This document shows positions 5,922 through 64,000 of a DNA stretch of 64,000 bases, piece after piece. The stretch's first letter is position 1. Each line of letters begins with the position of its first letter. The DNA comes from Arachidicoccus soli. Its GTDB lineage: Bacteria > Bacteroidota > Bacteroidia > Chitinophagales > Chitinophagaceae. The notes under the pieces are model-generated. The model had not been told where the DNA came from. It did no database searches and was given only the letters and a program-made list of their open reading frames with translations. The DNA is taken from contig NZ_CP032489.1 in NCBI RefSeq assembly GCF_003600625.1, positions 1,922,001 to 1,986,000 of the forward strand. The letters are read 5' to 3'. The position numbers and the translations under genes are program-made.

Positions 5922-6440
5922 ATGTCTTATCCATTGCCTATCCATATAAAAGAATCGATTGCAGAATTACGAGCCATTCAGAGAAAGGGCAGCGAGTTGA
6001 TTGCCAAAAGAATGCTGGTATTAATAGAGATCAAAAAGCATGAAAAAGAGGGTATATCTAAACGTGAACTGTCTGTACTTACCGGTATTAATCATAATAG
6101 TATCGTAAAGTGGCGTAAAATGTATCTTGCCAAAGGGCTTGAAAGCCTGTTAAGCCATGGGCGGGTGGGAGGTTTTAAAAAAAGTGTTATTAGTGCTGAA
6201 GAGCATCAGCAAATAGAGCAGTTATTGAAGGATCCCAATAATGGCATCCGAGGTTATAAGGAACTATTAGACTGGGTGAGAACTAAATTGTCTAAAGATA
6301 TAAAGTATATAACCTTGGTTAAATATGCCCAGAGACATTTCGGCACAAAAATAAAAGTGGCTAGAAAAAGTCATATTAATAAAGATAAAGAAGCTGTAGA
6401 GGCTTTTAAAAAAACTTCAATTGGAAATGTCAGCAGCTAA
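5922..6440 (+). CDS. IS630 transposase, N-terminal DNA-binding part (OrfA)
   Basis: This 172-residue frame carries the helix-turn-helix region of an IS630 transposase (GISKRELSVLTGINHNSIVKWRKMY, about residues 45-70), followed by a winged-helix-like segment (NGIRGYKELLDWV). These domains recognise the terminal inverted repeats. The frame ends at TAA 6438-6440, overlapping the ATG of the catalytic frame by one base (TAATG). A run of seven A preceded by four T (about 6414-6424) lies just before the stop. A -1 shift there gives FKKNFNW...QQLMLQT and joins the catalytic frame without a stop, so a fused product by frameshifting or polymerase slippage is likely. Confidence 0.85.
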   Translation: MSYPLPIHIKESIAELRAIQRKGSELIAKRMLVLIEIKKHEKEGISKRELSVLTGINHNSIVKWRKMYLAKGLESLLSHGRVGGFKKSVISAEEHQQIEQLLKDPNNGIRGYKELLDWVRTKLSKDIKYITLVKYAQRHFGTKIKVARKSHINKDKEAVEAFKKTSIGNVSS

Positions 6441-6988
6441 TGCTGCAAACTCCCCTATGTTTCGAAACGGTCAATCTCTATTTTCAGGACGAAAGCAGGT
6501 TTGGACTGTTTACCAGAAACGGCAAAGCATTGACAGCGTTGGGTGTAAAACCTATATGTGCGTTTCATCAGGTATTTAAAAGCCTATATTTATTTGGCGC
6601 CTTTTCTCCTGTTAATGGAGACAGCTTTTTACTTGAAATGCCCTTTTGCAATGCAGACAGTTTCCAACTATATCTGGATGAATTTTCTAAGCAAAATCCA
6701 AATGAGTTCAAAATCATCGTCCTGGACAATGGTGCATTTCATAAAGCCAAAGCACTCAAAATACCGGACAATATAGCATTCATATTTCTGCCACCATACA
6801 GTCCGGAATTAAATCCGGCCGAAAACATGTGGGCCAGATTCAAAAGAAGCTTTACCAACAAACTATTCAAGACCCTGGATGAAGTCAGTGACTTTATTGG
6901 AGAGTTCACTAAGAAGTTGACACCACAATCTATCCAAACAACCTGTGCATTTGAATACGCTGTTTCGGGTATTAATTGGACTAAATAA
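6440..6988 (+). CDS. IS630 transposase, DDE catalytic part (OrfB)
   Basis: This is the catalytic half of the transposase. The DDE triad is visible as the Asp of NLYFQDESRFGLF (near residue 17), the Asp of IIVLDNGAFH (near residue 95) and the Glu of SPELNPAENMWARFKR (near residue 127). These residues cut and join DNA at TA targets. The frame is -1 relative to OrfA and is probably expressed mainly as a fusion, because the coding potential continues upstream of its ATG into the slippery A run. Both halves look intact, so the element may still be active if the shift occurs. Confidence 0.88.
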   Translation: MLQTPLCFETVNLYFQDESRFGLFTRNGKALTALGVKPICAFHQVFKSLYLFGAFSPVNGDSFLLEMPFCNADSFQLYLDEFSKQNPNEFKIIVLDNGAFHKAKALKIPDNIAFIFLPPYSPELNPAENMWARFKRSFTNKLFKTLDEVSDFIGEFTKKLTPQSIQTTCAFEYAVSGINWTK

Positions 6989-8418: not shown

Positions 8419-10539
8419 ATGTCAATAGACAACCTAAAATTTAAACACGTAAGTTATTTATGGGACGAAACGGAAGCAGCCAAACTTGCAGGTGATGAAG
8501 TCGCGTTATTAATATACCGCTCCAATTTATTAGGAGCCGATTTAAGGCTTACCAACTATGGCGGAGGCAACACTTCTTGCAAAGCAATGGCCAAAGACCC
8601 TTTAACAGATGAAGAAGTAGAAGTGATGTGGGTAAAAGGTTCTGGCGGGGACATTGGCACTCTGAAAAAAAGTGGCTTAGCAGCTTTATATGTGGATAGG
8701 CTTCGTAGCTTAAAAAATATTTATAGAGGCGTGGAATTTGAAGATGAAATGGTAGAATTATTTAATCATTGCATTTACGATTTAGCAAGTAAAGCCCCAT
8801 CCATAGATACGCCTTTGCACGGCTTCTTACCATTTAAACATATTGACCATTTGCATCCGGACGCAGCTATAGCGATTGCAGCAGCTAAAGATGGCAAGAA
8901 AATTACGGAAGAATTATTTGAAGGAACAATCGGTTGGGTCGAATGGAAAAAACCAGGATTTGAATTGGGATTACAACTAAAACAATGCTTGGATGAAAAC
9001 CCTGGTATTAAAGGAATTATGTTGGGTTCACACGGTTTGTTTACCTGGGGAAATACGGCTTATGAAAGTTATATAAATACGTTGGAAGTAGTTGAACGTT
9101 GCGCAGAATATATTGAATCTAAAATCGGCAAAACAAGACCTGTATTTGGTGGTCAAAAAATTGAATCATTACCAAAAGATCAGAGGTTATCACAAGCTGC
9201 TGCAATTGCACCTGTTTTAAGAGGTTTTTGCAGTAGCAAACAAAAAATGATTGGTCATTTTACAGATGATGATAGAGTATTACAATTCATCAATAGTAAT
9301 GATCTTGAAAGACTGGCACCTCTAGGTACCAGTTGCCCAGACCATTTTTTACGCACCAAAATTAGCCCATTGGTGTTAGAATTAGCCCCAGATGCGGATT
9401 TGTCTGATGCTGCTTCTTTGAAAGCTACATTAAAGCCGGCATTTGAAGCATATAGAGTAATGTACACTGAATACTACAATACCTGTAAACACGCTAATAG
9501 TCCAGCTATAAGAGATACAAATCCCGTAGTTATTTTATATCCCGGTGTAGGGATGTTTACCTTTTCTAAAGACAAACAAACTACTCGGGTAGCATCTGAG
9601 TTTTATACAAATGCCATCAATGTAATGCGTGGCGCAGAAGCAATTTCAGAATATACTTCTTTACCACGTCAAGAAGCATTTGACATTGAATATTGGTTGT
9701 TAGAAGAAGCCAAACTTCAACGCATGCCAAAACCTAAAGCATTGAGTGGAAAAATTGCTTTGGTTACCGGAAGTGCAGGTGGAATTGGCAAAGCCATCGC
9801 AAAACGTTTTGCGCAAGAAGGTGCTTGTGTGATATTAAACGACATTAATCAAGAAAGGTTAGACGGTGCATTAGTTGAATTTAAAGAAACATTTGGTAGA
9901 GATACTGCAGCAGCAACCTTATTAAATGTTACGAATGAAGCTTCGGCAAAAGCAGCATTCGACAATGCTGCACTTGCTTTTGGCGGAGTCGATATTATTA
10001 TAAACAATGCCGGTATAAGTATTTCCAAATCCATTACCGATCATACGATAGAGGATTGGGATAAATTGTACGACATCTTAGTTAAAGGTCAATTTATTGT
10101 ATCAAAAGCAGGAGTGGCTATTTTGCGTAAGCAAGATTTAGGTGGCGATATTATCAACATTGTATCTAAGAATGCAGTTGTTGCAGGACCAAATAATCCG
10201 GGTTATGGCTCAGCAAAAGCAGCTCAAGCACATTTAACACGCTTATTGGCTACTGAACTTGGTGGAGATAAAATAAGAGTAAATACCGTAAACCCTGATG
10301 CCGTCATTGCTGATAGCAATATTTGGGCTGGCGGTTGGGCCGAAGGTAGAGCAAAAGCTTACGGCATTTCAGTAGCTGAGTTACCGGCTTATTATGCAAA
10401 GCGTACCATCTTAAATGAAGTAATTTTACCGGAAGACATTGCAAATGCTTGCTTTGCTTTTGTTGGTGGTTTACTTAATAAATCTACCGGGAATGCACTA
10501 AATGTAGATGGTGGCGTTGCTATGGGCTTTTACAGGTAA
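8419..10539 (+). CDS. Bifunctional rhamnulose-1-phosphate aldolase / L-lactaldehyde (short-chain) dehydrogenase
   Basis: This 706-residue fusion has two enzymes. The N-terminal class II aldolase domain (about residues 25-350) would split L-rhamnulose-1-phosphate into DHAP and L-lactaldehyde; metal-binding His residues are seen in HGFLPFKHIDHLHPDA and GSHGLFTW. The C-terminal short-chain dehydrogenase domain (about residues 440-705) has the NAD-binding TGSAGGIG motif near residue 450, NNAG near 535 and the catalytic YGSAK (Tyr596, Lys600); it would oxidise the lactaldehyde. Such fusions are known from rhizobial, Bacillus and Bacteroidota rhamnose operons. It lies 35 bases after rhaT and 95 bases before rhaI. 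The oxidation direction is inferred from the family; reduction to propanediol is the alternative. Confidence 0.92.
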   Translation: MSIDNLKFKHVSYLWDETEAAKLAGDEVALLIYRSNLLGADLRLTNYGGGNTSCKAMAKDPLTDEEVEVMWVKGSGGDIGTLKKSGLAALYVDRLRSLKNIYRGVEFEDEMVELFNHCIYDLASKAPSIDTPLHGFLPFKHIDHLHPDAAIAIAAAKDGKKITEELFEGTIGWVEWKKPGFELGLQLKQCLDENPGIKGIMLGSHGLFTWGNTAYESYINTLEVVERCAEYIESKIGKTRPVFGGQKIESLPKDQRLSQAAAIAPVLRGFCSSKQKMIGHFTDDDRVLQFINSNDLERLAPLGTSCPDHFLRTKISPLVLELAPDADLSDAASLKATLKPAFEAYRVMYTEYYNTCKHANSPAIRDTNPVVILYPGVGMFTFSKDKQTTRVASEFYTNAINVMRGAEAISEYTSLPRQEAFDIEYWLLEEAKLQRMPKPKALSGKIALVTGSAGGIGKAIAKRFAQEGACVILNDINQERLDGALVEFKETFGRDTAAATLLNVTNEASAKAAFDNAALAFGGVDIIINNAGISISKSITDHTIEDWDKLYDILVKGQFIVSKAGVAILRKQDLGGDIINIVSKNAVVAGPNNPGYGSAKAAQAHLTRLLATELGGDKIRVNTVNPDAVIADSNIWAGGWAEGRAKAYGISVAELPAYYAKRTILNEVILPEDIANACFAFVGGLLNKSTGNALNVDGGVAMGFYR

Positions 10540-15764: not shown

Positions 15765-16562
15765 CTAGGAGCCGCCAACTTTAAACCCAAGGTTAGCAGA
15801 AATCTTCTGTGCAGCCAGCTTCGCATCTGCAATAATATCTTCCGCAGGAATTGTATCTTTGATCTGTGACATCAAAATAGAAATAGTAAGGGAGGCTATC
15901 GCTTCACTCCCATTCCTTACAGGTACCGTGATATCCATAACACCGGTTGCTAAATCACTTGGTGTTAGATAATGACCTTCATTCTTAATCTCTTGCAAAG
16001 AAGCTAAAAACTTTTGCTGCTTACGTAAAGCATAACTACTAAATAGTTCATTGCGCTTAAGTAATTCAAACCTTGAATCTTCTTCCATAAAAGCCAATAA
16101 GACTTTACCTGAAGCCGTAAGGACCAATGGGAAAAGACTCCCTTCTTCAATTGAAAGCGCAATTGGTTCTGGGCTTCTGGCTTGGGAAATTATTATTAAC
16201 TTATCTTGATAGATCACACCAATATGGCAGGATTGTTTAATTTTTTCAGCCAAGTCATCCATGGGATACCTGGAAGCCTTTCTGATTTCATCAATTGGCG
16301 AGTGTCTATGCGACAAATTATACAGTTTCATGGAGGGCCTGTATTTCCCAGAGATATCATCTCTCAATAAATAACCTCTTTGCTCTAAGCAAATCAACAT
16401 TCTATAAATTTCGTTCGGGCTCTTTTCAATTCCAATGGCAATATCCGTTTGTGAAACCGGTTTCCCTTCTAAAGAAATATATTCCAAAATATCCAAACCT
16501 TTTTCGAGAGCAGGCGCATGATATTTCACTTCTTGCTCTTCTTTTATTTTTTTTGCTGACAT
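15765..16562 (-). CDS. IclR-family transcriptional regulator
   Basis: This 265-residue protein has a winged helix-turn-helix at about residues 17-75 (ALEKGLDILEYISLEGKPVSQTDIAIGIEKSPNEIYRMLICLEQRGYLL, read in parts) and a C-terminal GAF-like effector domain with the family segments LVLTASGKVLLAFM and GVMDITVPVRNG. IclR proteins sense small acids or aromatic compounds; KdgR of pectin catabolism is a known member. The gene is divergent from the CoA-transferase operon over 131 bases, the standard layout for a regulator of that operon. Its 3' end faces the DUF5703 gene with five bases between stops. The effector is unknown; a uronate- or deoxysugar-derived acid is a reasonable guess. Confidence 0.9.
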   Translation of the reverse strand: MSAKKIKEEQEVKYHAPALEKGLDILEYISLEGKPVSQTDIAIGIEKSPNEIYRMLICLEQRGYLLRDDISGKYRPSMKLYNLSHRHSPIDEIRKASRYPMDDLAEKIKQSCHIGVIYQDKLIIISQARSPEPIALSIEEGSLFPLVLTASGKVLLAFMEEDSRFELLKRNELFSSYALRKQQKFLASLQEIKNEGHYLTPSDLATGVMDITVPVRNGSEAIASLTISILMSQIKDTIPAEDIIADAKLAAQKISANLGFKVGGS

Positions 16563-16693: not shown

Positions 16694-17836
16694 ATGAGTT
16701 CGAAAAAACACTTAACCGGAATAACCTGGGATCATAGTCGCGGCTATTCGCCTATGGTAGCCACTTCCCAACGATTTAATGAAATTACAGAAACTAATAT
16801 AACCTGGGAAAAAAGGACATTACAGGATTTTGCAGACAAACCTATTAATAAGCTCGTAGAAATATTTGATTTATTAATCATAGACCATCCTTGGATTGGA
16901 TTTGCTGCTGAAAAAAAATTATTTGTTCCATTGGACCAATATTTACCTAATGAATATTTAAATGATTTAGAGAGGAATACTGTGGGTCAATCCTATTCAA
17001 GCTATCAACACAACAACCATTTATGGGCTTTACCAATTGATGCTGCTACTCCCGTTGCAAGTTATCGTAAGGACCTCCTTTCCATGCACAATGAAGAGCT
17101 TCCCAAAGACTTTAGTGAGCTGCTTGTTTTGGCACAAAAGGGGCTTGTAATTTTCCCGATTATTGCCATTGATACTTTGATGAATTTCTTTATGCTTTGT
17201 GCAACGCTTGGCGAAAATCCGTTTAGCAATGAAAATGAAGTGATAAGCACTGCAATAGGAACAGAAGCACTTCATTTATTGAAAGAACTTGCCAATACTG
17301 TAGATAAAAGATGCTTTGAATGGAACCCTATAAAGGTTTATGAAGTACTTTCAAACACAGATGAATTTGCTTATTGTCCATTCGCCTATGGTTACAGTAA
17401 TTATGCAAAAGAGGGCTTTGCAAAAAATAAATTAGCATTTGCTGATTTGATTCAATTAAAAGCTGAAAAATTAAAATCGACTATTGGGGGAACAGGAATC
17501 GCTATTTCTACTAATTGTAGCAATATGGATGCGGCAATGCAATTTGTGCAATATGTAGCATCCCCTACTATTCAGCAGCATTTGTATTTTGATAGTGGCG
17601 GACAACCGGCGCACCTTGCAAGCTGGCAAAATAAATATTGTAATAAAGTTACAGATAATTTTTTCTCTGCTACCCTACCTGCTTTAGAACGTGCTTATTT
17701 AAGGCCCAGATATAATGGGTTTATCTATTTTCAGGATAGGGCAGGTGATATTATCAGAGATTATCTAATGAAAGGGGGAAACACAAATACCGTTTTAGAA
17801 AAATTAAATAATTTATATCATAAATCGAAATTATGA
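16694..17836 (+). CDS. Solute-binding-protein-fold protein without signal peptide (SBP-1)
   Basis: This 380-residue protein resembles extracellular sugar-binding proteins of ABC importers (SBP family 1/8): an ITWDHSRGYSPM opening, FDLLIIDHPWIGFAAEKKLFVPLDQYLP, WALPIDAATPVASYRKDLL, and the C-terminal GGTGIAISTNCSNMDAAMQFVQYVASP. However, the N-terminus (MSSKKHLTGITWDH) has no hydrophobic signal or lipobox, so it is predicted cytoplasmic, and no ABC permease or ATPase gene is in the window. It is the first gene of the operon and overlaps the CoA-transferase start by four bases (ATGA), implying translational coupling. A ligand-presenting or sensing role beside the CoA-transferases is inferred; no biochemical role is known to me. 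Confidence 0.75.
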   Translation: MSSKKHLTGITWDHSRGYSPMVATSQRFNEITETNITWEKRTLQDFADKPINKLVEIFDLLIIDHPWIGFAAEKKLFVPLDQYLPNEYLNDLERNTVGQSYSSYQHNNHLWALPIDAATPVASYRKDLLSMHNEELPKDFSELLVLAQKGLVIFPIIAIDTLMNFFMLCATLGENPFSNENEVISTAIGTEALHLLKELANTVDKRCFEWNPIKVYEVLSNTDEFAYCPFAYGYSNYAKEGFAKNKLAFADLIQLKAEKLKSTIGGTGIAISTNCSNMDAAMQFVQYVASPTIQQHLYFDSGGQPAHLASWQNKYCNKVTDNFFSATLPALERAYLRPRYNGFIYFQDRAGDIIRDYLMKGGNTNTVLEKLNNLYHKSKL

Positions 17837-18969
17837 AGCCATTAGAAAATCTAATTGTTTTAGAGTTTTGCCAATATATGTCGGGACCATCTGCAGGATT
17901 ACGCCTGGCTGACTTAGGTGCGCGCGTTATAAAAATTGAAAGGCCGGATATTGGGGACAGTGGTCGACAATTGGCAGTTAAAGATTTATTTATAGGGGGC
18001 AATAGTATATTGTTTCATACTATTAACAGGAATAAAGAATCTTATGCAGCTAATTTAAAGGACCAAACAGATCTTGAAAAAATCAAAAAACTTATTCTCA
18101 AGGCGGATATACTCATCCACAATTTTAGGCCAAAAGTAATGGAGAAACTAGGTTTGGGATTTGAGGACATTCAATTGTTAAACCCGCGATTAATCTATGC
18201 AGAAATAAGTGGATATGGCAAAAAGGGACCCTGGAAAAAGAAACCGGGCCAAGATCTGCTCTTGCAATCAATCTCTGGTCTGACTTGGTTATCCGGAGAC
18301 AAATCGGCCCCACCCATTCCATTCGGGTTGTCCATTGCAGATTATATGTGTGGTACACATTTAACACAAGGCATATTAGCTGCACTGATCAAAAGAAATA
18401 AAACAAAACTTGGTTCCTTGATTGAAGTAAATTTACTTTCCACCTTAATCGATTTTCAGTTTGAAGTAATAACGACCTATTTAAATGATGGAGGAAAACT
18501 GCCGCAAAGAGCTGAGAATGGCAATGCGCACGCTTACCTGAGTGCACCTTACGGCATTTATAAAACGCTGGACGGGTATTTGGTGGTAGCCATGGAGAAC
18601 TTAGAATATCTAGGGAAAAATATTGATTTGATTGAAATAAAGAACTTTGTAAAAGAAAATTTCTCTCAAAGGGATAAAGTAATGGAAATGCTTCAATCCC
18701 ATTTCCAGCTCAAAACCACCAAGCATTGGCTTCTTTTGTTAGAATCCGCAAAAATATGGTGTGCAGGTGTTTTAAACTACCATCAATTTTTAAATCACAA
18801 TGGATTTAAGGTTTTAAATATGACACAGGAGATTTCATTGCCAAATCAGCAGAAAATAATAACAACGAGGTGCCCGATCAGAATCGATGGCGAGAAATAT
18901 TTTTCTAAAAAACCCGGTCCCATTTTAGGAGAGAATACTTTCTCCATAGACGAAGAAATCTTTCATTAA
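17833..18969 (+). CDS. Class III CoA-transferase (CaiB/BaiF family), copy 1
   Basis: Class III CoA-transferases move CoA between carboxylic acids through a mixed anhydride and an aspartyl-CoA thioester. This 378-residue protein has the family N-terminus (LEFCQYMSGPSAGLRLADLGARVIKIERP), the HNFRP segment (residues 96-100), the SGYGKKGPWKKKPGQDLLLQSISGL region at 126-150, and the presumed catalytic Asp170 in FGLSIADYMCGTH, aligned with the active Asp of formyl-CoA transferase. It overlaps the preceding gene by four bases and lies 19 bases before a close paralogue. The substrate acid and CoA donor are unknown. It is a little shorter than many family members (about 400), but no core motif is missing. 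Confidence 0.88.
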   Translation: MKPLENLIVLEFCQYMSGPSAGLRLADLGARVIKIERPDIGDSGRQLAVKDLFIGGNSILFHTINRNKESYAANLKDQTDLEKIKKLILKADILIHNFRPKVMEKLGLGFEDIQLLNPRLIYAEISGYGKKGPWKKKPGQDLLLQSISGLTWLSGDKSAPPIPFGLSIADYMCGTHLTQGILAALIKRNKTKLGSLIEVNLLSTLIDFQFEVITTYLNDGGKLPQRAENGNAHAYLSAPYGIYKTLDGYLVVAMENLEYLGKNIDLIEIKNFVKENFSQRDKVMEMLQSHFQLKTTKHWLLLLESAKIWCAGVLNYHQFLNHNGFKVLNMTQEISLPNQQKIITTRCPIRIDGEKYFSKKPGPILGENTFSIDEEIFH

Positions 18970-18988
18970 TTTTACCAAGAACAGCGTT

Positions 18989-20185
18989 ATGTGCAAGCCA
19001 TTAGAAGATATTTTAATAATAGATTTTAGCCAATTTCTATCAGGGCCCTCAGCAAGTTTAAGACTTGCCGATTTGGGTGCTCGTGTGATAAAAATTGAGA
19101 AACCCTTGACAGGAGACATTTCCAGACATATGTATATTTCCAATGTGGAAATGAATGGTGCTTCCTCTGTATTCCACGCAATAAACAGGAATAAAGAAAG
19201 TTTCACTGCAGACTTAAAATCAGAAAAAGATAAAGAGGAATTAAAAGAGCTGATAAGACAAGCTGATATTGTCATGCACAATTTCAGACCTGGTGTGATG
19301 GAAAGACTAGGCTTTAATTATTCAGCCGTGAAGGCTATCAAAAATGATATTATCTACGGAGAGATAAGCGGCTATGGAACGGAAGGGCCTTGGAAATTCA
19401 AACCAGGGCAAGACCTTTTATTACAAGCACTTTCAGGAATTTGCTGGTTAAGTGGAAATCAAGAAATGGCGCCGGTACCGATGGGCATCTCATTAGTCGA
19501 TATAGCAGCCGGTGCACATTTAGTACAAGGTCTTTTAGCATGTTTATATCGGAAAGGAATAACTGGTGAAGGAGGATTGGTTCAAGTCAGTATGCTTGAG
19601 TCTGCATGTGATTTGCAATTTGAATCTATTACGACTTACCTGAATGATGGCAATGAACTGCCGCAACGCACAAAAACAAGCAATGCAAATGCATATTTGG
19701 GAGCGCCTTATGGAATTTATAAAACACTCAACGGTTACTTATCATTAGCGATGGGTTCTATTCCAACACTAGGCGAATTGATTAATTGCGCTCCTTTAAA
19801 TAAATACAAGACACCTACAAGTTGGTTTAGGCACAGAGAAGAAATAAAAGAGATTTTAGAAGGCTTTTTGTGCAGAAGAACAACAGAACATTGGTTATCT
19901 ATCCTAGAACCAGCTGATATTTGGTGTGCGGAAGTTTTGACTTGGGACAAATTAATTGAACATGAAGGCTTTAAAAAACTAAACATGATTCAAAAAGTTG
20001 AGATGAAAGACGGATATAATTTTTTAACTACAAGATGTCCGATTATATTTGACAATCAAACTTTATTATCAGCAAAAGGTACTCCAAAACTTGGAGAAGA
20101 TAATCAAGCAATTGCAGAGGAATTTTTAAAACAGCATTTACTTACCCATGCAGTACATAAACAAGAAATTAAGAGTTGCAGTTAG
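18989..20185 (+). CDS. Class III CoA-transferase (CaiB/BaiF family), copy 2
   Basis: This 398-residue paralogue of the preceding protein shares long stretches with it (DFSQFLSGPSASLRLADLG, AINRNKESFTADLK, MHNFRPGVMERLGF, EISGYGTEGPWKFKPGQD). The presumed nucleophile is Asp171 in MGISLVDIAAGAH. Both copies therefore look catalytically competent. Class III enzymes form interlocked homodimers; two adjacent non-identical copies may form a heterodimer or act on two different acids. The end of this gene overlaps the next reading frame by 38 bases, pointing to coupled translation. Tandem duplication followed by divergence is the simplest origin. Confidence 0.88.
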   Translation: MCKPLEDILIIDFSQFLSGPSASLRLADLGARVIKIEKPLTGDISRHMYISNVEMNGASSVFHAINRNKESFTADLKSEKDKEELKELIRQADIVMHNFRPGVMERLGFNYSAVKAIKNDIIYGEISGYGTEGPWKFKPGQDLLLQALSGICWLSGNQEMAPVPMGISLVDIAAGAHLVQGLLACLYRKGITGEGGLVQVSMLESACDLQFESITTYLNDGNELPQRTKTSNANAYLGAPYGIYKTLNGYLSLAMGSIPTLGELINCAPLNKYKTPTSWFRHREEIKEILEGFLCRRTTEHWLSILEPADIWCAEVLTWDKLIEHEGFKKLNMIQKVEMKDGYNFLTTRCPIIFDNQTLLSAKGTPKLGEDNQAIAEEFLKQHLLTHAVHKQEIKSCS

Positions 20186-21383
20186 GAAATTTACACCGTT
20201 TGAAAATGCCTTGGAAAAAATCTGGCATTCTTTCAAGGTGCAAACGAATACGGAATTTGAGCTTGAGTATTCTTCAATGGATTTAACGGAATTACATCAA
20301 TCTTTATTCGAGGAAGGTGGTTTACAGAATGGTAGCTGGGATATTGTTCAATTAAGTTCAGATTGGGTCTCAGAAGCTTTTAACAAAGGAGCAATCGAAG
20401 ATTTAGCACCTTTTATTGCACAGAATGAAAAAGAGGTTTATTTACAAAACTGGCCGCCCTCTCTGCGAAGAAGCCAGACTTTTGAAAACAAAATTTACGG
20501 TATACCTTTTCATGATGGTCCGGAATGTATGATTTATCGTACAGATTTATTTGAAAGCGAAGAAAATAAAGCTAAATTTAAAGCGCTGTTTGCGGAAGAA
20601 TTAGAGGTTCCTAAATCATGGGGGAAATTTTTGCAGGTAGCTACATTTTTCAGCTCTTTACAACAAGGATTTTACGGCACTGCTTTGGCTGCATTTCCTG
20701 ACGGGCACAATGCGGTATATGATTTTTGCATTCAAGCCTGGTCCAGAGGCGGAGTGTTTCTAAGAAAAGATAATTCAATTAATATAGATATTCCTCAAAT
20801 TGTTGAAGGATTAAATTTTTACAGAGATTTTATTCAATCAAAAAATAGCATTCACCCTCAAAGTAAAAATTTCGACTCCGTAAGACTTGGGCAGGCATTT
20901 GCCAATGGTGAAATTGCCATGATGATTAATTGGTTTGGGTTTGCAGCTTATGCACAATTAGAAGGCCTTCCAAAGGTCAAAAATAATGTTGGCGTATGTG
21001 AAATTCCCACTGACGGGGAAAATAAAAGCATCTCGCCTAATTCCTATTGGATTTATTCCATCGCCAAAGGTTCTCAAAATAAGCATATTGCCTACGAATT
21101 TATTTCTTTTGCAACCAATCAAATCAATGATTGTATATTAACTTTAGAAGGGGGCATTGGCTGCAGATTGACAACATATAAGGATGAAGAAATAAACAGA
21201 CAAATTCCGTTTTTCAATCAATTAGAAATCTTACACAGCTATGCAACTGAGCTGCCCAACCTACCTCAATGGGCCAGCGTGGCGCATCACATTGACAATT
21301 TAATGTTACAGGTAATGAACACAAATACGCCCATTGAATTATTAGTAAAAGAAACCCAAAAACTTATTTCAAATAATACTTAG
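20148..21383 (+). CDS. Solute-binding-protein-fold protein without signal peptide (SBP-2)
   Basis: This 411-residue protein is a second SBP family 1/8-like protein, only distantly similar to SBP-1. Recognisable parts are WDIVQLSSDWVSEAFNKGAIEDLAPF, NKIYGIPFHDGPECMIYRTDLFE (the hinge-side sugar-binding region of many SBPs), FANGEIAMMINWFGFAAYA and SPNSYWIYSIAKGSQNKHIAYEF. The N-terminus (MQYINKKLRVAVRKFTPF) leads straight into the first beta strand of the fold with no signal peptide, so the protein is predicted to remain in the cytoplasm. Its start lies inside the 3' end of the CoA-transferase gene (38-base overlap). No ABC transporter partner is visible. Confidence 0.75.
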   Translation: MQYINKKLRVAVRKFTPFENALEKIWHSFKVQTNTEFELEYSSMDLTELHQSLFEEGGLQNGSWDIVQLSSDWVSEAFNKGAIEDLAPFIAQNEKEVYLQNWPPSLRRSQTFENKIYGIPFHDGPECMIYRTDLFESEENKAKFKALFAEELEVPKSWGKFLQVATFFSSLQQGFYGTALAAFPDGHNAVYDFCIQAWSRGGVFLRKDNSINIDIPQIVEGLNFYRDFIQSKNSIHPQSKNFDSVRLGQAFANGEIAMMINWFGFAAYAQLEGLPKVKNNVGVCEIPTDGENKSISPNSYWIYSIAKGSQNKHIAYEFISFATNQINDCILTLEGGIGCRLTTYKDEEINRQIPFFNQLEILHSYATELPNLPQWASVAHHIDNLMLQVMNTNTPIELLVKETQKLISNNT

Positions 21384-21389
21384 CACCCC

Positions 21390-22454
21390 ATGCAAATAAT
21401 TGACAAAGTACTTATGCCAAAAACAAAAATCCCCATTATTATAATAGGCGCTAGCAGCATTGTAAAAGATGCACATTTACCGGCTTACAAGAATGGCGGA
21501 TTTGAAGTATTCGGCATTTTAAATAGAACAAAATCCAAAGCCGAATTATTAGCAACAGCATACAATATCCCAAATGTATTTAATAACTTAAAAGAGGCTA
21601 TTGCAGCGGCACCGGAAAAAGTAATTTATGACATTGCCATCATGCCACAACAATATTTGGATATTTTAAATGAACTACCTGATGGTTCAATTATTCTTCT
21701 CCAAAAACCAATGGGTGAAACCCTTGATGAGGCAAAAGAGATTTTAGCTGTATGTAGAAGAAAAAAACATATTGCCGCCATCAATTTTCAGTTGCGCCAT
21801 GCACCGTTTATTATTGCAGCTAGAAAATTAATAGAAGAGGGTCAGATTGGCGAAATCTACGATTTTGAAGTAAGGCTTACGACCTTTACTCCCTGGGATA
21901 TTTTCCCCATAATTGCCTTAAACAAAAGACTGGAAATACTGTATCACAGTATTCATTATATGGACCTAATACGCTCTTTTTTAGGCAACCCAAAATCGAT
22001 TGTGAGTAAGACTTTCGGGCATCCCATCAAAACCTATTCGTCTACCAGAACGACGACCATATTCGATTATGGAGAGGATACAAGAGCAGTAATTAATACC
22101 AATCACGATCACCATTTTGGTCCGAAAAATCAAGAAAGTTTTATTAAAATGGAAGGCACAAAAGGTGCAATCAAAATAAAGATGGGTCTATTATTAGATT
22201 ATCCTCATGGCGTTCCCGATAAATTTGAATATTGTTTTTTAGAAGAAAATAAAGAAACGGAATGGATAGAATATAAAATAGATGGCAGCTGGTTTCCTGA
22301 AGCATTTACGAATATCATGGCTGGCTTAATGCGCTTCGCAGAAGGAACTGAGCATTGCTTACCTACCCATGTGGAAGATGTAATCCACACAATGGAAATC
22401 GTGGAAAGTGCCTATCTATCTAATGAAAAAGACGGGCAGTTATTAAAAGCTTAA
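21390..22454 (+). CDS. Gfo/Idh/MocA-family NAD(P)-dependent oxidoreductase
   Basis: Family members oxidise or reduce hydroxyl groups of sugars, inositols and related compounds. The Rossmann nucleotide-binding segment is IPIIIIGASSIVKDAHLPAY; the EKP-type lysine motif appears as ILLQKPMGETLDEAKEIL near residue 108; and the C-terminal domain has the substrate-side HSIHYMDLIRSFLG segment with His residues. Translation may begin at 21390 or at an in-frame ATG at 21414, which lies closer to the Rossmann strand; both are possible. It follows SBP-2 by six bases and precedes maoC by 18. It may supply the acid or keto acid used by the CoA-transferases, which is inference. Confidence 0.85.
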   Translation: MQIIDKVLMPKTKIPIIIIGASSIVKDAHLPAYKNGGFEVFGILNRTKSKAELLATAYNIPNVFNNLKEAIAAAPEKVIYDIAIMPQQYLDILNELPDGSIILLQKPMGETLDEAKEILAVCRRKKHIAAINFQLRHAPFIIAARKLIEEGQIGEIYDFEVRLTTFTPWDIFPIIALNKRLEILYHSIHYMDLIRSFLGNPKSIVSKTFGHPIKTYSSTRTTTIFDYGEDTRAVINTNHDHHFGPKNQESFIKMEGTKGAIKIKMGLLLDYPHGVPDKFEYCFLEENKETEWIEYKIDGSWFPEAFTNIMAGLMRFAEGTEHCLPTHVEDVIHTMEIVESAYLSNEKDGQLLKA

Positions 22455-22472
22455 CTACAAAAACGCATTACA

Positions 22473-22913
22473 ATGCATATCAAAACTGAATTTTTTGAAG
22501 ACTATATTTTAGGCGACTCGAGAGAAAGTTTGGGCAGAACTATTACCGAGACAGATTTTGTTTTGCACGCAGGACAAACAGGTGATTTTTTCCCGCACCA
22601 TATGGATGCGGAATGGTGCAAAACGCAACCATTTAAGCAACGTATTGCCCATGGAACCCTTATATTTAGCGTGGCCATTGGTCAAACTGCAAGTCAAATT
22701 AACCCTGAAGCCTTCTCTAAAGGATATGATCGTCTTCGTTTTATAAAACCGGTATTTATTGGAGATACTATTCATACTAAAATAGCTATATCCGAAAAAT
22801 CTGAAGACAAGAAGGCGGGTTATGGAAAAATTGTGGAACATGTAGAGGTCTATAATCAAAACAACGAAATTGTAATGGTTTGCGATCATATTTTATTGGC
22901 AAAAAAGAAATAA
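22473..22913 (+). CDS. MaoC-like hot-dog-fold enoyl-CoA hydratase/dehydratase
   Basis: The 146-residue protein is a single hot-dog domain of the MaoC/hydratase-2 type, which adds or removes water from acyl-CoA thioesters. The catalytic dyad is visible in [13 protein letters not shown] as Asp38 and His43 (D-x4-H), followed by the conserved [14 protein letters not shown] segment. It is expected to act on the CoA thioester made by the CoA-transferases, for instance dehydrating a beta-hydroxyacyl-CoA. Its position between the oxidoreductase and the permease, with gaps of 18 and 11 bases, ties it to the operon. The actual substrate is unknown. Confidence 0.88.
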
Positions 22914-22924
22914 CAGCTTTATAA

Positions 22925-23962
22925 ATGATTACACCTAATCCTATTGAAGGTATTGGATTCCATGCAGCCGGTGCCGCCTCCGCCTCCACTTGTTATCTTC
23001 CGTTTCACAAGACCAAGAAATGGTCCTGGGTGGCATACTGGTTAATACAATCCTTGTTCGCATGGATTTTAGCTCCTTTGGTTATTGCGTTGATAACCGT
23101 ACCGGATTTTTTTGACGTCATTAAACAATCCCCTAGCAACATAGTTTGGCTGACATTTTTATTAGGAGGTATGTACGGCTTTGGAGGTATGTCTTTTGGC
23201 TTTGCAACCAGATATATCGGCTACTCACTTACCTACGCCATTTCAATCGGGCTTTCAGCGGTTCTGGGTACTGTTTTGCCTTTATTAATCAAAGGAAATC
23301 TAATCGGTTATTTTCAACAAAGTGGTGGTAATATTATTTTGATCGGAATGATTGTAGCTCTTTTGGGCGTAGCACTTTGTGGCTTGGCAGGATTTAAAAA
23401 AGAAAGGGAGGTCAAGGCAGAAAACAAGGGTAAATTCAATATGAAAAAAGGATTTATGCTGGCAGCAGTTGCCGGCGTTTTATCCGGCGTGTTTAATATT
23501 GCATTAGAAATTGGACAGCCTATTGCTGATTTGGCATCAAAAAAAGGTGCGGGCATTTATGAAGATAATGCCAAACTTATTATAGCTACTGCAGGTTGCT
23601 TTGTCATAAATGTTATTTGGTTTACATGTTTGGGCATCAAACAAAAAAATCTCGTAGAACTCACTGTCAAAAGCAATATACCTAAACCCACCTTATTTAG
23701 AAATTTTTTATGGGCGGCATTTGGTGGTGTACTTTGGTGCATGCAGTTTTTCTTTTACGGCTTAGGGCATGTAAAAATGGGTAGGTTTCAGTTTGCAAGC
23801 TGGGTCATTCACATGTCGATGCTTATATTTTTTAGCTTCCTCGTTGGCATAGCCATGAAAGAATGGAGAAATGTCTCCAAGAAAACTTATGCCACGCTAA
23901 TCATTGCTTTAATTGTTTTAGGTGCATCATTTTTTATTCTTTCTTTTGGTAGCATGCAGTAA
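22925..23962 (+). CDS. Second RhaT-family permease (rhamnose/proton symporter paralogue)
   Basis: This 345-residue integral membrane protein is clearly a RhaT-family permease with about ten membrane segments. Shared marks with the 7307-8383 protein include GIGFHAAGAASASTCYLPFHKTKKWSW, GMSFGFATRYIGYSLTYAIS, WCMQFFFYGLGHVKMG and the C-terminal AMKEWRNVSKKTY. Because a RhaT already serves the rhamnose operon, and this gene ends the CoA-transferase operon, it probably carries a related deoxy sugar or sugar acid. Its stop codon (23960-23962) directly abuts the stop of the convergent GH127 gene (23963-23965), leaving no room for a private terminator. Confidence 0.85.
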   Translation: MITPNPIEGIGFHAAGAASASTCYLPFHKTKKWSWVAYWLIQSLFAWILAPLVIALITVPDFFDVIKQSPSNIVWLTFLLGGMYGFGGMSFGFATRYIGYSLTYAISIGLSAVLGTVLPLLIKGNLIGYFQQSGGNIILIGMIVALLGVALCGLAGFKKEREVKAENKGKFNMKKGFMLAAVAGVLSGVFNIALEIGQPIADLASKKGAGIYEDNAKLIIATAGCFVINVIWFTCLGIKQKNLVELTVKSNIPKPTLFRNFLWAAFGGVLWCMQFFFYGLGHVKMGRFQFASWVIHMSMLIFFSFLVGIAMKEWRNVSKKTYATLIIALIVLGASFFILSFGSMQ

Positions 23963-61123: not shown

Positions 61124-64000
61124 TTAAAACCCTACATTAAGCCCCAAAGCCCAAGTCCGCAATGTGGGATAACCTACATTTGGCGCATCATACATATTGC
61201 GATATTTATCCGGATATGGATTATTTAGATACCAAAGATTATTTCCTGCGAGGAATACCCTTACACTTTGAATACCTGCTTTCTTTACAAGAGCTACTGG
61301 AAGTGTATAACCTATACTTAGACTCCGTATAACAGCACTGAATGTTGGCAACATAAAGAAATCTGAATTGGTACCTCCAAAAGCATCGTAATAATATATG
61401 TTTGGATATTTTCCATTTGGATTGGTTGCGGAATCATACATATCAGTCAAATATATAGGCTGAGACCAAGTAGCATTTGAACTGGATGTACCTTGCTTTA
61501 TATAATCTAAACGTCGCGTACCACCCCAACCTACAGAAATTTGCGTAATCAATGAAATACCTTTCCAACCTAAGTTTATATTACTAGTAAAGCCATAAGT
61601 TCTATTTGATTTTTTTAATTTCACATAATCTTGATCCTGCGTAATAGTTCCATCCGGGCCTGCAATTGTTTTATTATTAGCATTCAATGGGCCTGCAACA
61701 TCCTTATATACCAACATACCTTTTTTCAAACCAGATTCAGATGTAATTCCCATAAAATTGGGTGCAGCACCTGCTATACCAGAGTTCGCAGCATTTTCTG
61801 ATAAATAATTCCAATAATTGTTTATATCAGCATCGGTGCGTAATATTCCGTCATGGCCAGAAGTTTGTTTCCAAGTTTCAAATCCCCACACTGGCGTAAT
61901 TCCCTCATTACCAACAGCCATTCTGGTTGTTGCAATCGAAGGATAGGCAAATGGTTGATCTAAATATTTCAGCACTTTATAATTACTTGTTCCGGTATTA
62001 ATGCCCACAGCGTAAGTAAAATCCCCAACATGGTCTCTCCAGCCAATGGAAAGCTCGGAACCCCAAGAATTGATATTCGTATAGTTTTGCTCAGCAAAAG
62101 CACCTCCTACTGATATTGGCGTATTAAGCGCACCTGCCATAGCCTGTAACAGATTTCTACCTGAATTAAAATATTGGTCAAATGTCACTGAAAGCCGACT
62201 GTTTAAAAAGGACATATCTAATCCAAAGTTCCTTTGTAAAGTACGATCCCATTTTACATCAGCATTGGGCGTAACGCCTGGAACAAGCCCATTAACATAT
62301 ACACCACCATTACTGCCAAAGCCAAAACCTTTATTAGGATAGGCATTATATGTTTGTAGCCAATGCCAAGGTTTTATATTACTATTACCCGTAAGACCTA
62401 CATCCGCACGTATTTTCAAAAAGTTAATCCAAGAAATATGGTCCTTAAAGAACTTTTCGTCAGAAATTACCCAACCGGCAGAAGCAGCCGGGAAGTAGCC
62501 CCAATAGTTTTGCGGAGCAAAAATAGTGCTCGCATCTGTACGGAAAATGAACTGAAAAAGGTATTTACTTTTATAGTTATAGTTTAAACGACCAAGATAG
62601 GATAAAGACCCTCCTGCAAAACGATTAGTGTAAGTATTACCAGCATCTATAGTTCCCGCTGACACCGAAGTACCATTATAGGTAGCGGGGTCGGGACTAG
62701 TATATATCTGAAATCTATCATCTGAAGTATTTGTTGCTTTTTCAACGGAAGCCATTGCAGAAATACTATGATCTCCAATTTGCTTATCATAAGTAACAAA
62801 GAAGTTGGACTGTTCGTTTTTTGATGTTGTGTTATCATAGGTAACCCGCGAGCCTGATGTATTCAAATAAGACTTCCATTTGGAATCGGTAGAACCTAAT
62901 TCTGAAAACAGATGGGAATCAGCATTCACGATATTAGCATCTTGATATAATAATTGGGGGAACATATCTTGTTCTGTATTAGATGACATTTGAGATAACC
63001 CATAATTTAATTTAAACGCTAAACCTGGTATGTAAGGCACAGCATAGGTTAATGAGAAATTGACATTATAATTGAAACTCTTGGTAACTGTTTGCGAGCC
63101 ATTGTTTAATAATGCATAATAATTCCAACCACTTAAGGAACTGCCTGTTTTTGCCTGTCCTGTTTTATTTATACCTAAGGGTGGTGAAATATATTGATCT
63201 ACGCCATTAACATTATATATCCAAGGAATATATTGAGGCATATGCAATAATACACTATAGTCATTTTGTTCACCGCCAACTGCATAGCCATCGCTAAAAT
63301 TAATTTTAGTAAATGATTTTGCAATATCCGAATTGTTTGCCGCTACTGTGGCGCCCAATTGTAACCCACTTAATACTTTCACGTTCGTTCCAGCCCTGTA
63401 TGTCCAACGATTATAATTTTGTGACCCTAAATTAGCTCCCTGTGTGTAATAAGAAGCTCCAGTAAAATAAGTAGCTTTTTCTGTACCACCACTTACATCT
63501 AAAGAATGTTGCTGGGCATAAGCTGGCTTCCAAGCATTTCCCAACCAATTATAATCTAGCGTATCCATACTTAACAATTCGGAATCTGAAAACATATATT
63601 TGGGGTCTGTTCCATGGCCAGCTGCGCTATTAAACTTATTGGAATAATCGCCAAACTGTCTTGCATTCATTACCTTTCCAAAGCTTACCGCATTGTTCCT
63701 TTCAAACTTAGCACTATAAGAAAGATGCGGTGCACCAATACTTCCTCTCTTTGTGGTTACTATTATAGCACCTTGAGAGCCGCGTGCTCCATAAATAGCC
63801 GCTGCAGCATCACGAACTACCGTAATACTTGCGACTTCGGACAAATCTAAGTTTTGAAGCGCAGTTTGCGATGGTAAACCTGATTGTGGATCAACTTGAA
63901 TAACATCATCAATAACAACAATTGGAGAAGTTGAACCTCCGTCTTTTCCATAATTAAATTGTTGCCTGACGTCTAATGTCGCCATGTCTCCTGGTCTTTG
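61124..64000 (-). CDS. SusC-like TonB-dependent outer-membrane receptor, 5' end outside window
   Basis: The reading frame is open to the last base of the window, and the residues before the internal Met at 63985 (QRPGD) fit the SusC plug, so the true start lies beyond 64000. The visible part begins in the plug domain (TSPIVVIDDVIQVDP, EVASITVVRDAAAAIYGARGSQGAIIVTTKRG) and continues through the whole beta-barrel, ending with an aromatic residue (LNVGF). It imports the oligosaccharides presented by the SusD 38 bases downstream. The carboxypeptidase-like N-terminal domain and TonB box are not in the window. Confidence 0.95.
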   Translation of the reverse strand, partial: QRPGDMATLDVRQQFNYGKDGGSTSPIVVIDDVIQVDPQSGLPSQTALQNLDLSEVASITVVRDAAAAIYGARGSQGAIIVTTKRGSIGAPHLSYSAKFERNNAVSFGKVMNARQFGDYSNKFNSAAGHGTDPKYMFSDSELLSMDTLDYNWLGNAWKPAYAQQHSLDVSGGTEKATYFTGASYYTQGANLGSQNYNRWTYRAGTNVKVLSGLQLGATVAANNSDIAKSFTKINFSDGYAVGGEQNDYSVLLHMPQYIPWIYNVNGVDQYISPPLGINKTGQAKTGSSLSGWNYYALLNNGSQTVTKSFNYNVNFSLTYAVPYIPGLAFKLNYGLSQMSSNTEQDMFPQLLYQDANIVNADSHLFSELGSTDSKWKSYLNTSGSRVTYDNTTSKNEQSNFFVTYDKQIGDHSISAMASVEKATNTSDDRFQIYTSPDPATYNGTSVSAGTIDAGNTYTNRFAGGSLSYLGRLNYNYKSKYLFQFIFRTDASTIFAPQNYWGYFPAASAGWVISDEKFFKDHISWINFLKIRADVGLTGNSNIKPWHWLQTYNAYPNKGFGFGSNGGVYVNGLVPGVTPNADVKWDRTLQRNFGLDMSFLNSRLSVTFDQYFNSGRNLLQAMAGALNTPISVGGAFAEQNYTNINSWGSELSIGWRDHVGDFTYAVGINTGTSNYKVLKYLDQPFAYPSIATTRMAVGNEGITPVWGFETWKQTSGHDGILRTDADINNYWNYLSENAANSGIAGAAPNFMGITSESGLKKGMLVYKDVAGPLNANNKTIAGPDGTITQDQDYVKLKKSNRTYGFTSNINLGWKGISLITQISVGWGGTRRLDYIKQGTSSSNATWSQPIYLTDMYDSATNPNGKYPNIYYYDAFGGTNSDFFMLPTFSAVIRSLSIGYTLPVALVKKAGIQSVRVFLAGNNLWYLNNPYPDKYRNMYDAPNVGYPTLRTWALGLNVGF

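Follow-up and report, generated by a model that had tools for sequence, protein, structure and literature searches.

What two solute-binding proteins (SBPs) of the kind that serves ATP-binding cassette (ABC) transporters are doing in an operon with CoA-transferases is the question raised by a 64,000-nucleotide stretch of Arachidicoccus soli DNA (contig NZ_CP032489.1, positions 1,922,001 to 1,986,000; hereafter the window). The operon runs in the order SBP1, CaiB1, CaiB2, SBP2, Gfo/Idh oxidoreductase, MaoC-type hydratase and RhaT-type symporter, with an IclR-type gene divergent from it. An earlier note, made from the letters of this DNA, had claimed that the two SBPs lack export signals and any ABC partner, and had suggested that their fold now serves a purpose inside the cell, perhaps in connection with the transferases. 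Our analysis makes it fairly probable that SBP1 and SBP2 are cytosolic, ABC-SBP-derived, non-transport parts of a CoA-dependent catabolism of a fucose- or rhamnose-like sugar. Sequence analysis and counts support the cytosolic location in the window, the predicted fold, the linkage to CoA-transferases and the alternation of SBP2 with an amidohydrolase; the substrate class and the order of the pathway steps are what we infer from them.

Fold, location and transporter partners

Both proteins exceeded the curated cut-offs of the Pfam families SBP_bac_1 and SBP_bac_8, and AlphaFold2 modeled them with a mean pLDDT (predicted local distance difference test score) of 93.8 for SBP1 and 91.6 for SBP2. 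Whole-length superposition of the SBP1 model on 6dtq_A gave a Z of 38.0 and a root mean square deviation of 2.6 over 366 residues at 16% identity, and that of the SBP2 model gave TM-scores of 0.87/0.91 at 22% identity. As modeled, SBP1 and SBP2 carry the maltose-binding-protein (MBP) fold; such structure searches show relatives of the fold only and are silent on function. Between themselves, the SBP1 and SBP2 families are distantly related (hhalign 97.6%). Residues W12, H14, R16, D64, H65, D116, Q304, R337 and R339 of SBP1 are kept across five phyla, and H122-D-G-P-E126, D185-G-H-N188, E19 and R340 of SBP2 are kept in bacteria and a haloarchaeon. The conserved SBP1 residues would sit after predicted strand ends, where sugar-binding proteins hold their ligand, and two or three of the arginines would suit an acid ligand.

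Stop-to-stop reading showed that in-frame upstream stops allow SBP1 to be extended by 2 residues (TF) and SBP2 by 6 (NSIYLP), which makes a signal peptide impossible for either protein in the window. The first strand occupies residues 5-12 of SBP1 and 7-13 of SBP2 in the models, and no hydrophobic N-terminus was found in either, the maximal 12-residue hydropathy being -0.17 and 0.07, respectively. The claim of missing export signals was thus borne out, and a true upstream start with a signal peptide is excluded by the in-frame stops. The frame ahead of the start was short and hydrophilic in 30/30 family loci. In a larger set of loci, 71 of 98 with SBP1 and 46 of 70 with SBP2 had fewer than 20 residues available ahead of the first strand. 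The remaining loci, with at least 20 residues available, had no convincing hydrophobic leader except for L086, where the most hydrophobic possible leader lies upstream of the usual start, a single case that we do not exclude. All 11 ABC and tripartite ATP-independent periplasmic (TRAP) binding proteins of the same clusters had a hydrophobic leader, nine at the annotated start and two just upstream of it; the importers located in these clusters bring their own leader-bearing binding protein.

Pfam scanning of 39 open reading frames (ORFs) of the window, a set that leaves aside ORF 61124-63985 and antisense ORFs, detected no ABC permease or ATPase. It did detect three symporters, two of the RhaT type and one of the SSF type; the earlier statement that no permease or ATPase occurs in the 64 kb therefore held for the ABC type but not for permeases generally. 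The genome of A. soli is a single contig of 4,099,663 bases with a completeness of 100, and BPD_transp_1 had six matches in it. By their sequence and neighbors, and with no family search on these matches, they appear to be Dpp-type peptide permeases (two) and two Pst-type phosphate pairs (four), and no sugar-type MalF/MalG pair was apparent among them. An unlinked permease set, looked for genome-wide, is accordingly not supported, in agreement with the absence of an ABC partner proposed before. PF13416 matched only SBP1 and SBP2 in this genome. The four PF01547 matches were SBP1, SBP2, a sub-cut-off match at 2370262 and one at 945234 that lies directly before a Pst pair and has a visible lipoprotein start.

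The fold and Pfam family of SBP1 and SBP2 are those of sugar-binding proteins, L086 can be read with a hydrophobic leader, and the genomes of many relatives contain sugar ABC importers, all of which would accord with their being normal ABC-transporter binding proteins, either with an overlooked export signal or with a transporter encoded at another place. We nevertheless hold this explanation to be hardly credible, given that a leader has no space in the window or, by the counts above, in most related loci, that the A. soli genome has no sugar-type ABC permease, and that importer-containing clusters hold a separate, leader-bearing binding protein.

Linkage of SBP1 to CaiB transferases

A CaiB gene lay immediately 3′ of SBP1 in 94 of 100 loci (at -67 to +52 bases) and at exactly -4 in 69 of the 100, a count in which at least one genome was entered twice (L039 and L082). 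Three of the other six loci (L054, L120 and L128) also have CaiB next door, with a boundary misplaced by the ORF caller. When CaiB was sought on the same strand within 400 bases, it was present in 30/30, 20/20, 77/80, 10/10 and 16/19 loci of five sets that overlap one another. Among 12 SBP1-bearing plasmid regions, 10 had CaiB as the direct neighbor. The other two had it less than 5 kb away, at a distance of two genes in Streptomyces and ~4 kb off on the opposite strand in Jannaschia.

The 4-base overlap is retained in Sinorhizobium medicae and S. meliloti, where the nearest annotated neighbors of the CaiB-SBP1 pair are non-cluster genes. The S. meliloti pair lies ~10 kb from a cluster of amidohydrolase, IclR, ABC importer, enolase-type dehydratase, RhaM-like frame, Gfo, MaoC, short-chain dehydrogenase/reductase (SDR) and FAH genes. 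The pSymB cluster of this species is presumably linked to L-fucose transport (SMb21103), a link that we did not find in the literature. At ~731-732 kb of S. meliloti 1021 pSymB (L210 16301-17457), a CaiB relative is split between two matching segments that overlap by 4 bases, possibly through a frame break in this strain. In Pedobacter ginsenosidimutans (L088), the cluster ends after SBP1-CaiB1, and the following genes are on the opposite strand.

Relatives of SBP1 are spread over five phyla: Bacteroidota, Bacillota, Acidobacteriota, Pseudomonadota and Actinomycetota. By genome set, they were detected in 33/195 Chitinophagaceae, 19/395 genomes of the phylum Bacteroidota, 3/247 genomes from the phylum of an acidobacterial genome and 14/197 from the family of a Cohnella genome. 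The genome_contigs collection yielded 292 stretches with relatives, of which the best 80 were analyzed; these came mostly from Pedobacter, and also from Paenibacillus, Sphingobacterium, Pontibacter, Chitinophagaceae and one Bryobacteraceae genome. Another 160 records were plasmids, rhizobial for the most part and including three Streptomyces records. SBP2 relatives at 34 to 46% identity were found in Rufibacter, Persicobacter, Croceibacterium and the haloarchaeon Halostagnicola larsenii. The genome_contigs loci contained 66 SBP2 ORFs, and within Chitinophagaceae SBP2 was present in 3/195 genomes, all Arachidicoccus. Reuse of the fold inside the cell, tied to CoA-transferases, is therefore upheld by the impossibility of a leader in the window, the CaiB link in loci of five phyla, and co-clustered importers that have their own leader-bearing SBP.

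The two transferases form separate clades in Bacteroidota (support 100 for CaiB1 and 96 for CaiB2). The motif G[QY]D, the catalytic-Asp motif of family III CoA-transferases, was present at residues 130-190 in 87/87 CaiB1 and 95/95 CaiB2 ORFs of 360-420 amino acids (aa), and one genome (G027, L055 9716-12103) encodes a natural CaiB1-CaiB2 fusion of 795 aa with the Asp motif in both halves. The separate clades, the retained motif and the fusion suggest that CaiB1 and CaiB2 would form a heteromer. Neither reached an NCBIfam equivalog cut-off, and rhizobial clusters contain a single CaiB.

Alternation of SBP2 with an amidohydrolase

With clusters counted over 15 kb, 99 had Gfo near CaiB, and exactly one of SBP2 and the amidohydrolase was present in 96 of them: 65 had SBP2 alone, 31 had the amidohydrolase alone, one had both (Halostagnicola) and two had neither (L166 and L167). 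The 16 clusters without Gfo comprised 12 with neither gene, two with SBP2 and two with the amidohydrolase. Over all 115 clusters, the mutual exclusion had a Fisher's p of 1.4e-16, kinship being ignored. On a Gfo tree of 63 rows, four of which are long and of uncertain placement, the SBP2/amidohydrolase state changes at least six times, with three changes forced by starred branches.

SBP1 and SBP2 are thus to be viewed separately, SBP1 with CaiB and MaoC, and SBP2 with Gfo and in alternation with the amidohydrolase. Across 60 loci with all six genes, partial distance correlations of SBP1 were 0.53 with MaoC, 0.40 with CaiB2, 0.31 with CaiB1, 0.11 with SBP2 and 0.05 with Gfo, and those of SBP2 were 0.50 with Gfo and 0.29 with CaiB2, values that come from related genomes and are weak evidence.

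Four copies of the cluster amidohydrolase had L-fucono-1,5-lactonase NF052480 as their best match, at 140, 203.6, 102.4 and 49.3 bits, below the cut-off of 400. SBP2 may replace this amidohydrolase, or it may mark a slightly different substrate; that it performs or replaces lactone handling is a tentative and somewhat doubtful proposition. A better-scoring fuconolactonase-like copy, of at least 205 bits, was present elsewhere in 25 of 27 genomes (the exceptions being G004 and the genome of L075), and 17 of the 18 SBP2-type genomes were among these 25. A lactonase can therefore work in trans, and SBP2 does not have to stand in for the cluster enzyme. An obligatory replacement of the lactonase by SBP2 is weakened by these copies.

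The copies elsewhere in 17 of 18 genomes also weigh against a place for the SBPs in the proposed catabolism, as do the kinship behind the distance correlations and several observations on SBP1. In three of the 100 loci (L122, L127 and L133), SBP1 stands apart from the CaiB pair, which lies upstream of MaoC, and 3 of the 19 short loci of the Paenibacillaceae/Acidobacteriota set have no CaiB within 400 bases. A CaiB2-type transferase (E <= 1e-60) was found in 36 of 195 Chitinophagaceae genomes, including all 33 with SBP1; the three genomes without it (G077, G109 and G180) retain CaiB1, CaiB2, amidohydrolase, Gfo and MaoC, and have no substitute full SBP, the only PF01547 match in the three being a single one of weak range in G077. 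SBP1, and with it a simple presentation of ligand to the transferase, is therefore not obligatory everywhere. Finally, no SBP-CaiB fusion was found, with no SBP1 match in a frame longer than 517 aa in the genome sets searched. Two longer plasmid frames (757 and 574) were considered as such fusions, and the annotation shows separate genes. A physical SBP1-CaiB complex is, in our estimate, a real possibility that stops somewhat short of being probable.

Given that the conserved residues of both proteins look enzyme-like and that SBP2 alternates with an enzyme, SBP1 and SBP2 might be stand-alone SBP-fold enzymes acting on a sugar lactone or acid within the cleft, with no transferase complex and with gene overlap reflecting co-expression only. 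However, a binding protein would likewise be expected to conserve its cleft strongly, a catalytic template was not found, 3 of 36 genomes have lost SBP1 and keep the rest, and the lactonase-like gene is available elsewhere in nearly all SBP2-type genomes; we regard such enzymes as unlikely. The loss of SBP1 from three genomes fits more easily with an accessory role, and the operon has an IclR-type regulator beside it both in A. soli and in several relatives, so that the proteins could be cytosolic sensors or buffers, which bind the sugar acid and report to the regulator or hold a reactive intermediate. This role appears quite improbable to us, since the fixed order and overlap of SBP1 and CaiB link SBP1 to the transferase, not to the regulator, and some clusters have no nearby IclR gene.

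Operon, substrate and known systems

Rereading of the ORFs reproduced the coordinates, starts and overlaps (4 and 38 bases) reported earlier, which are collected in Table 1. The divergent IclR-family gene is probably the local regulator. The MaoC gene has no other relative in the A. soli genome at E <= 1e-5; the hydratase is of the MaoC type in most clusters and of the crotonase type in L166, L167 and L195. In many relatives the position of the RhaT-type symporter is taken by a major facilitator superfamily (MFS) transporter, and the one tested, at L061, is TIGR00885 fucP, above cut-off. Between 15765 and 23962 there are no lactonase, acid dehydratase, SDR or FAH genes, leaving the classical L-fucose oxidative set incomplete in the operon.

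Table 1. Features of the operon and its divergent neighbor, in window coordinates.
Feature	Position	Strand	Details
IclR-family regulator	15765-16562	-	Pfam IclR_C 1.6e-23, HTH_IclR 2.4e-09; present beside relatives too
SBP1, MBP fold without export signal	16694-17836	+	380 aa
Overlap of SBP1 stop and CaiB1 start	17833-17836	+	4 bases
CaiB1, family III CoA-transferase	17833-18969	+	Pfam CoA_transf_3 1.4e-88, above cut-off
CaiB2, second family III CoA-transferase	18989-20185	+	Pfam CoA_transf_3 9.8e-93, above cut-off
Overlap of CaiB2 and SBP2	20148-20185	+	38 bases
SBP2, second MBP fold without export signal	20148-21383	+	411 aa
Gfo/Idh/MocA oxidoreductase	21390-22454	+	Pfam PF01408 1.6e-09
MaoC-type (hot-dog) hydratase/dehydratase	22473-22913	+	Pfam PF01575 4.7e-21
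RhaT-type sugar symporter	22925-23962	+	Pfam PF06379 4.1e-61

Clues to the sugar class come from a fucP-type transporter, a fuconolactonase-like amidohydrolase, the L-rhamnose-mutarotase family, annotated alpha-L-fucosidases and rhamnosidases. The window itself encodes rhamnosidases (one of GH106 and several of GH78 type), an oligogalacturonate lyase and members of GH127, GH141, GH2 and GH43, a set whose predicted activities point to a pectin diet. A separate L-fucose locus lies at ~3.10-3.11 Mb of the genome (L211 4680-13096), with an L-fucose dehydrogenase at 410 bits (cut-off 300), FucP at 338 bits (cut-off 280), SDR, FAH-type hydrolase and galactarate-dehydratase-like genes, and the better-scoring fuconolactonase-like amidohydrolase copy of this genome. 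The window also contains a rhamnose-type set of isomerase, kinase and aldolase-dehydrogenase that does not reach NCBIfam cut-offs. L-fucose or L-rhamnose itself is made less likely as the substrate by this locus and this gene set, and because the genome has both, a third sugar related to fucose and rhamnose is suggested. Such a 6-deoxyhexose-like sugar probably comes from pectin in A. soli.

Two features of the rhamnose region may be recorded beside these. At 8419-10539 of the window, a class II aldolase and a short-chain dehydrogenase are joined in a single protein that adjoins the rhamnose-isomerase-like and FGGY-kinase genes, and at 5922-6988 transposase-like pieces lie in two overlapping frames (HTH_32 then DDE_3).

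In the pathway that we propose, mutarotation of the deoxysugar would be followed by its oxidation by the Gfo/Idh dehydrogenase and by lactone opening, the stage at which SBP2 or the fuconolactonase-like amidohydrolase would act. CaiB, with SBP1 as its ligand-binding partner, would then convert the sugar acid to a CoA ester; the partner transferase would be the CaiB1/CaiB2 heteromer in Bacteroidota and the single CaiB in rhizobia. MaoC or an enoyl-CoA hydratase would hydrate or dehydrate the CoA ester so formed. A more specific version, in which the MBP fold was recruited twice, with SBP1 as a substrate-delivery subunit of CaiB1/CaiB2 and SBP2 as a lactone catalyst or carrier that displaced the amidohydrolase at least three times independently, seems to us rather unlikely as a whole.

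Public annotation of these proteins as "extracellular" or "ABC-transporter substrate-binding" masks a conserved cytosolic family. If our interpretation is true, sugar-binding proteins were drawn, along with a CoA-transferase, into a soluble metabolic machine in five bacterial phyla and, in the case of SBP2, in an archaeon as well. Two questions could then be tested directly on the CaiB-SBP1 pair and on the exchange of SBP2 for the amidohydrolase: how binding proteins come to work within enzyme systems, and whether a deoxysugar of plant walls or algae is broken down by way of CoA esters.

SBP1 and SBP2 share their whole fold with SBP_bac_1/SBP_bac_8 sugar-binders such as MalE3, the trehalose/maltose-binding protein 1eu8, Arad_9887 (5iai) and the sulfoquinovosyl-binding SmoF. 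Unlike these, they lack both signal peptide and lipobox, have no partner permease encoded in the genome, and share an operon with CoA-transferases. Relative to the Asp named in the title of entry 6jai (D118A), sequence alignments place an Asp two places earlier in SBP1 and one place earlier in SBP2. Searches of open-licence PubMed Central full texts gave no description of a cytosolic protein of the MBP type that goes with CaiB transferases. Cyclohexadienyl dehydratase belongs to an SBP subfamily, and has a chemistry, other than those of SBP1 and SBP2. One paper gives it as a case of an SBP fold turned enzyme (PMC7683729), and with this it shares with SBP1 and SBP2 a departure from transport. 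The CaiB-SBP genes go unmentioned in passages of PMC12542648, PMC4961836 and PMC6683767.

CaiB1 and CaiB2 resemble family III (CaiB/BaiF) enzymes in their CoA_transf_3 domain and in matching solved structures, including chain B of the heteromeric benzylsuccinate CoA-transferase 9fn0; the likeness to 9fn0 extends to their being two different subunits, fused in one relative. Unlike known family III transferases, each is overlapped by an SBP-fold gene, an arrangement for which we found no description. The oxidative L-fucose pathway, comprising fucose dehydrogenase, fuconolactonase, sugar-acid dehydratase and FAH-type hydrolase, has counterparts in the related clusters, namely the fuconolactonase-like amidohydrolase, a RhaM-type mutarotase, an enolase-type dehydratase and Gfo, with SDR and FAH sometimes present. 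Unlike that pathway, the operon adds CaiB, MaoC and the SBPs, and since A. soli has its L-fucose dehydrogenase and FucP at a separate locus, it probably serves another sugar.

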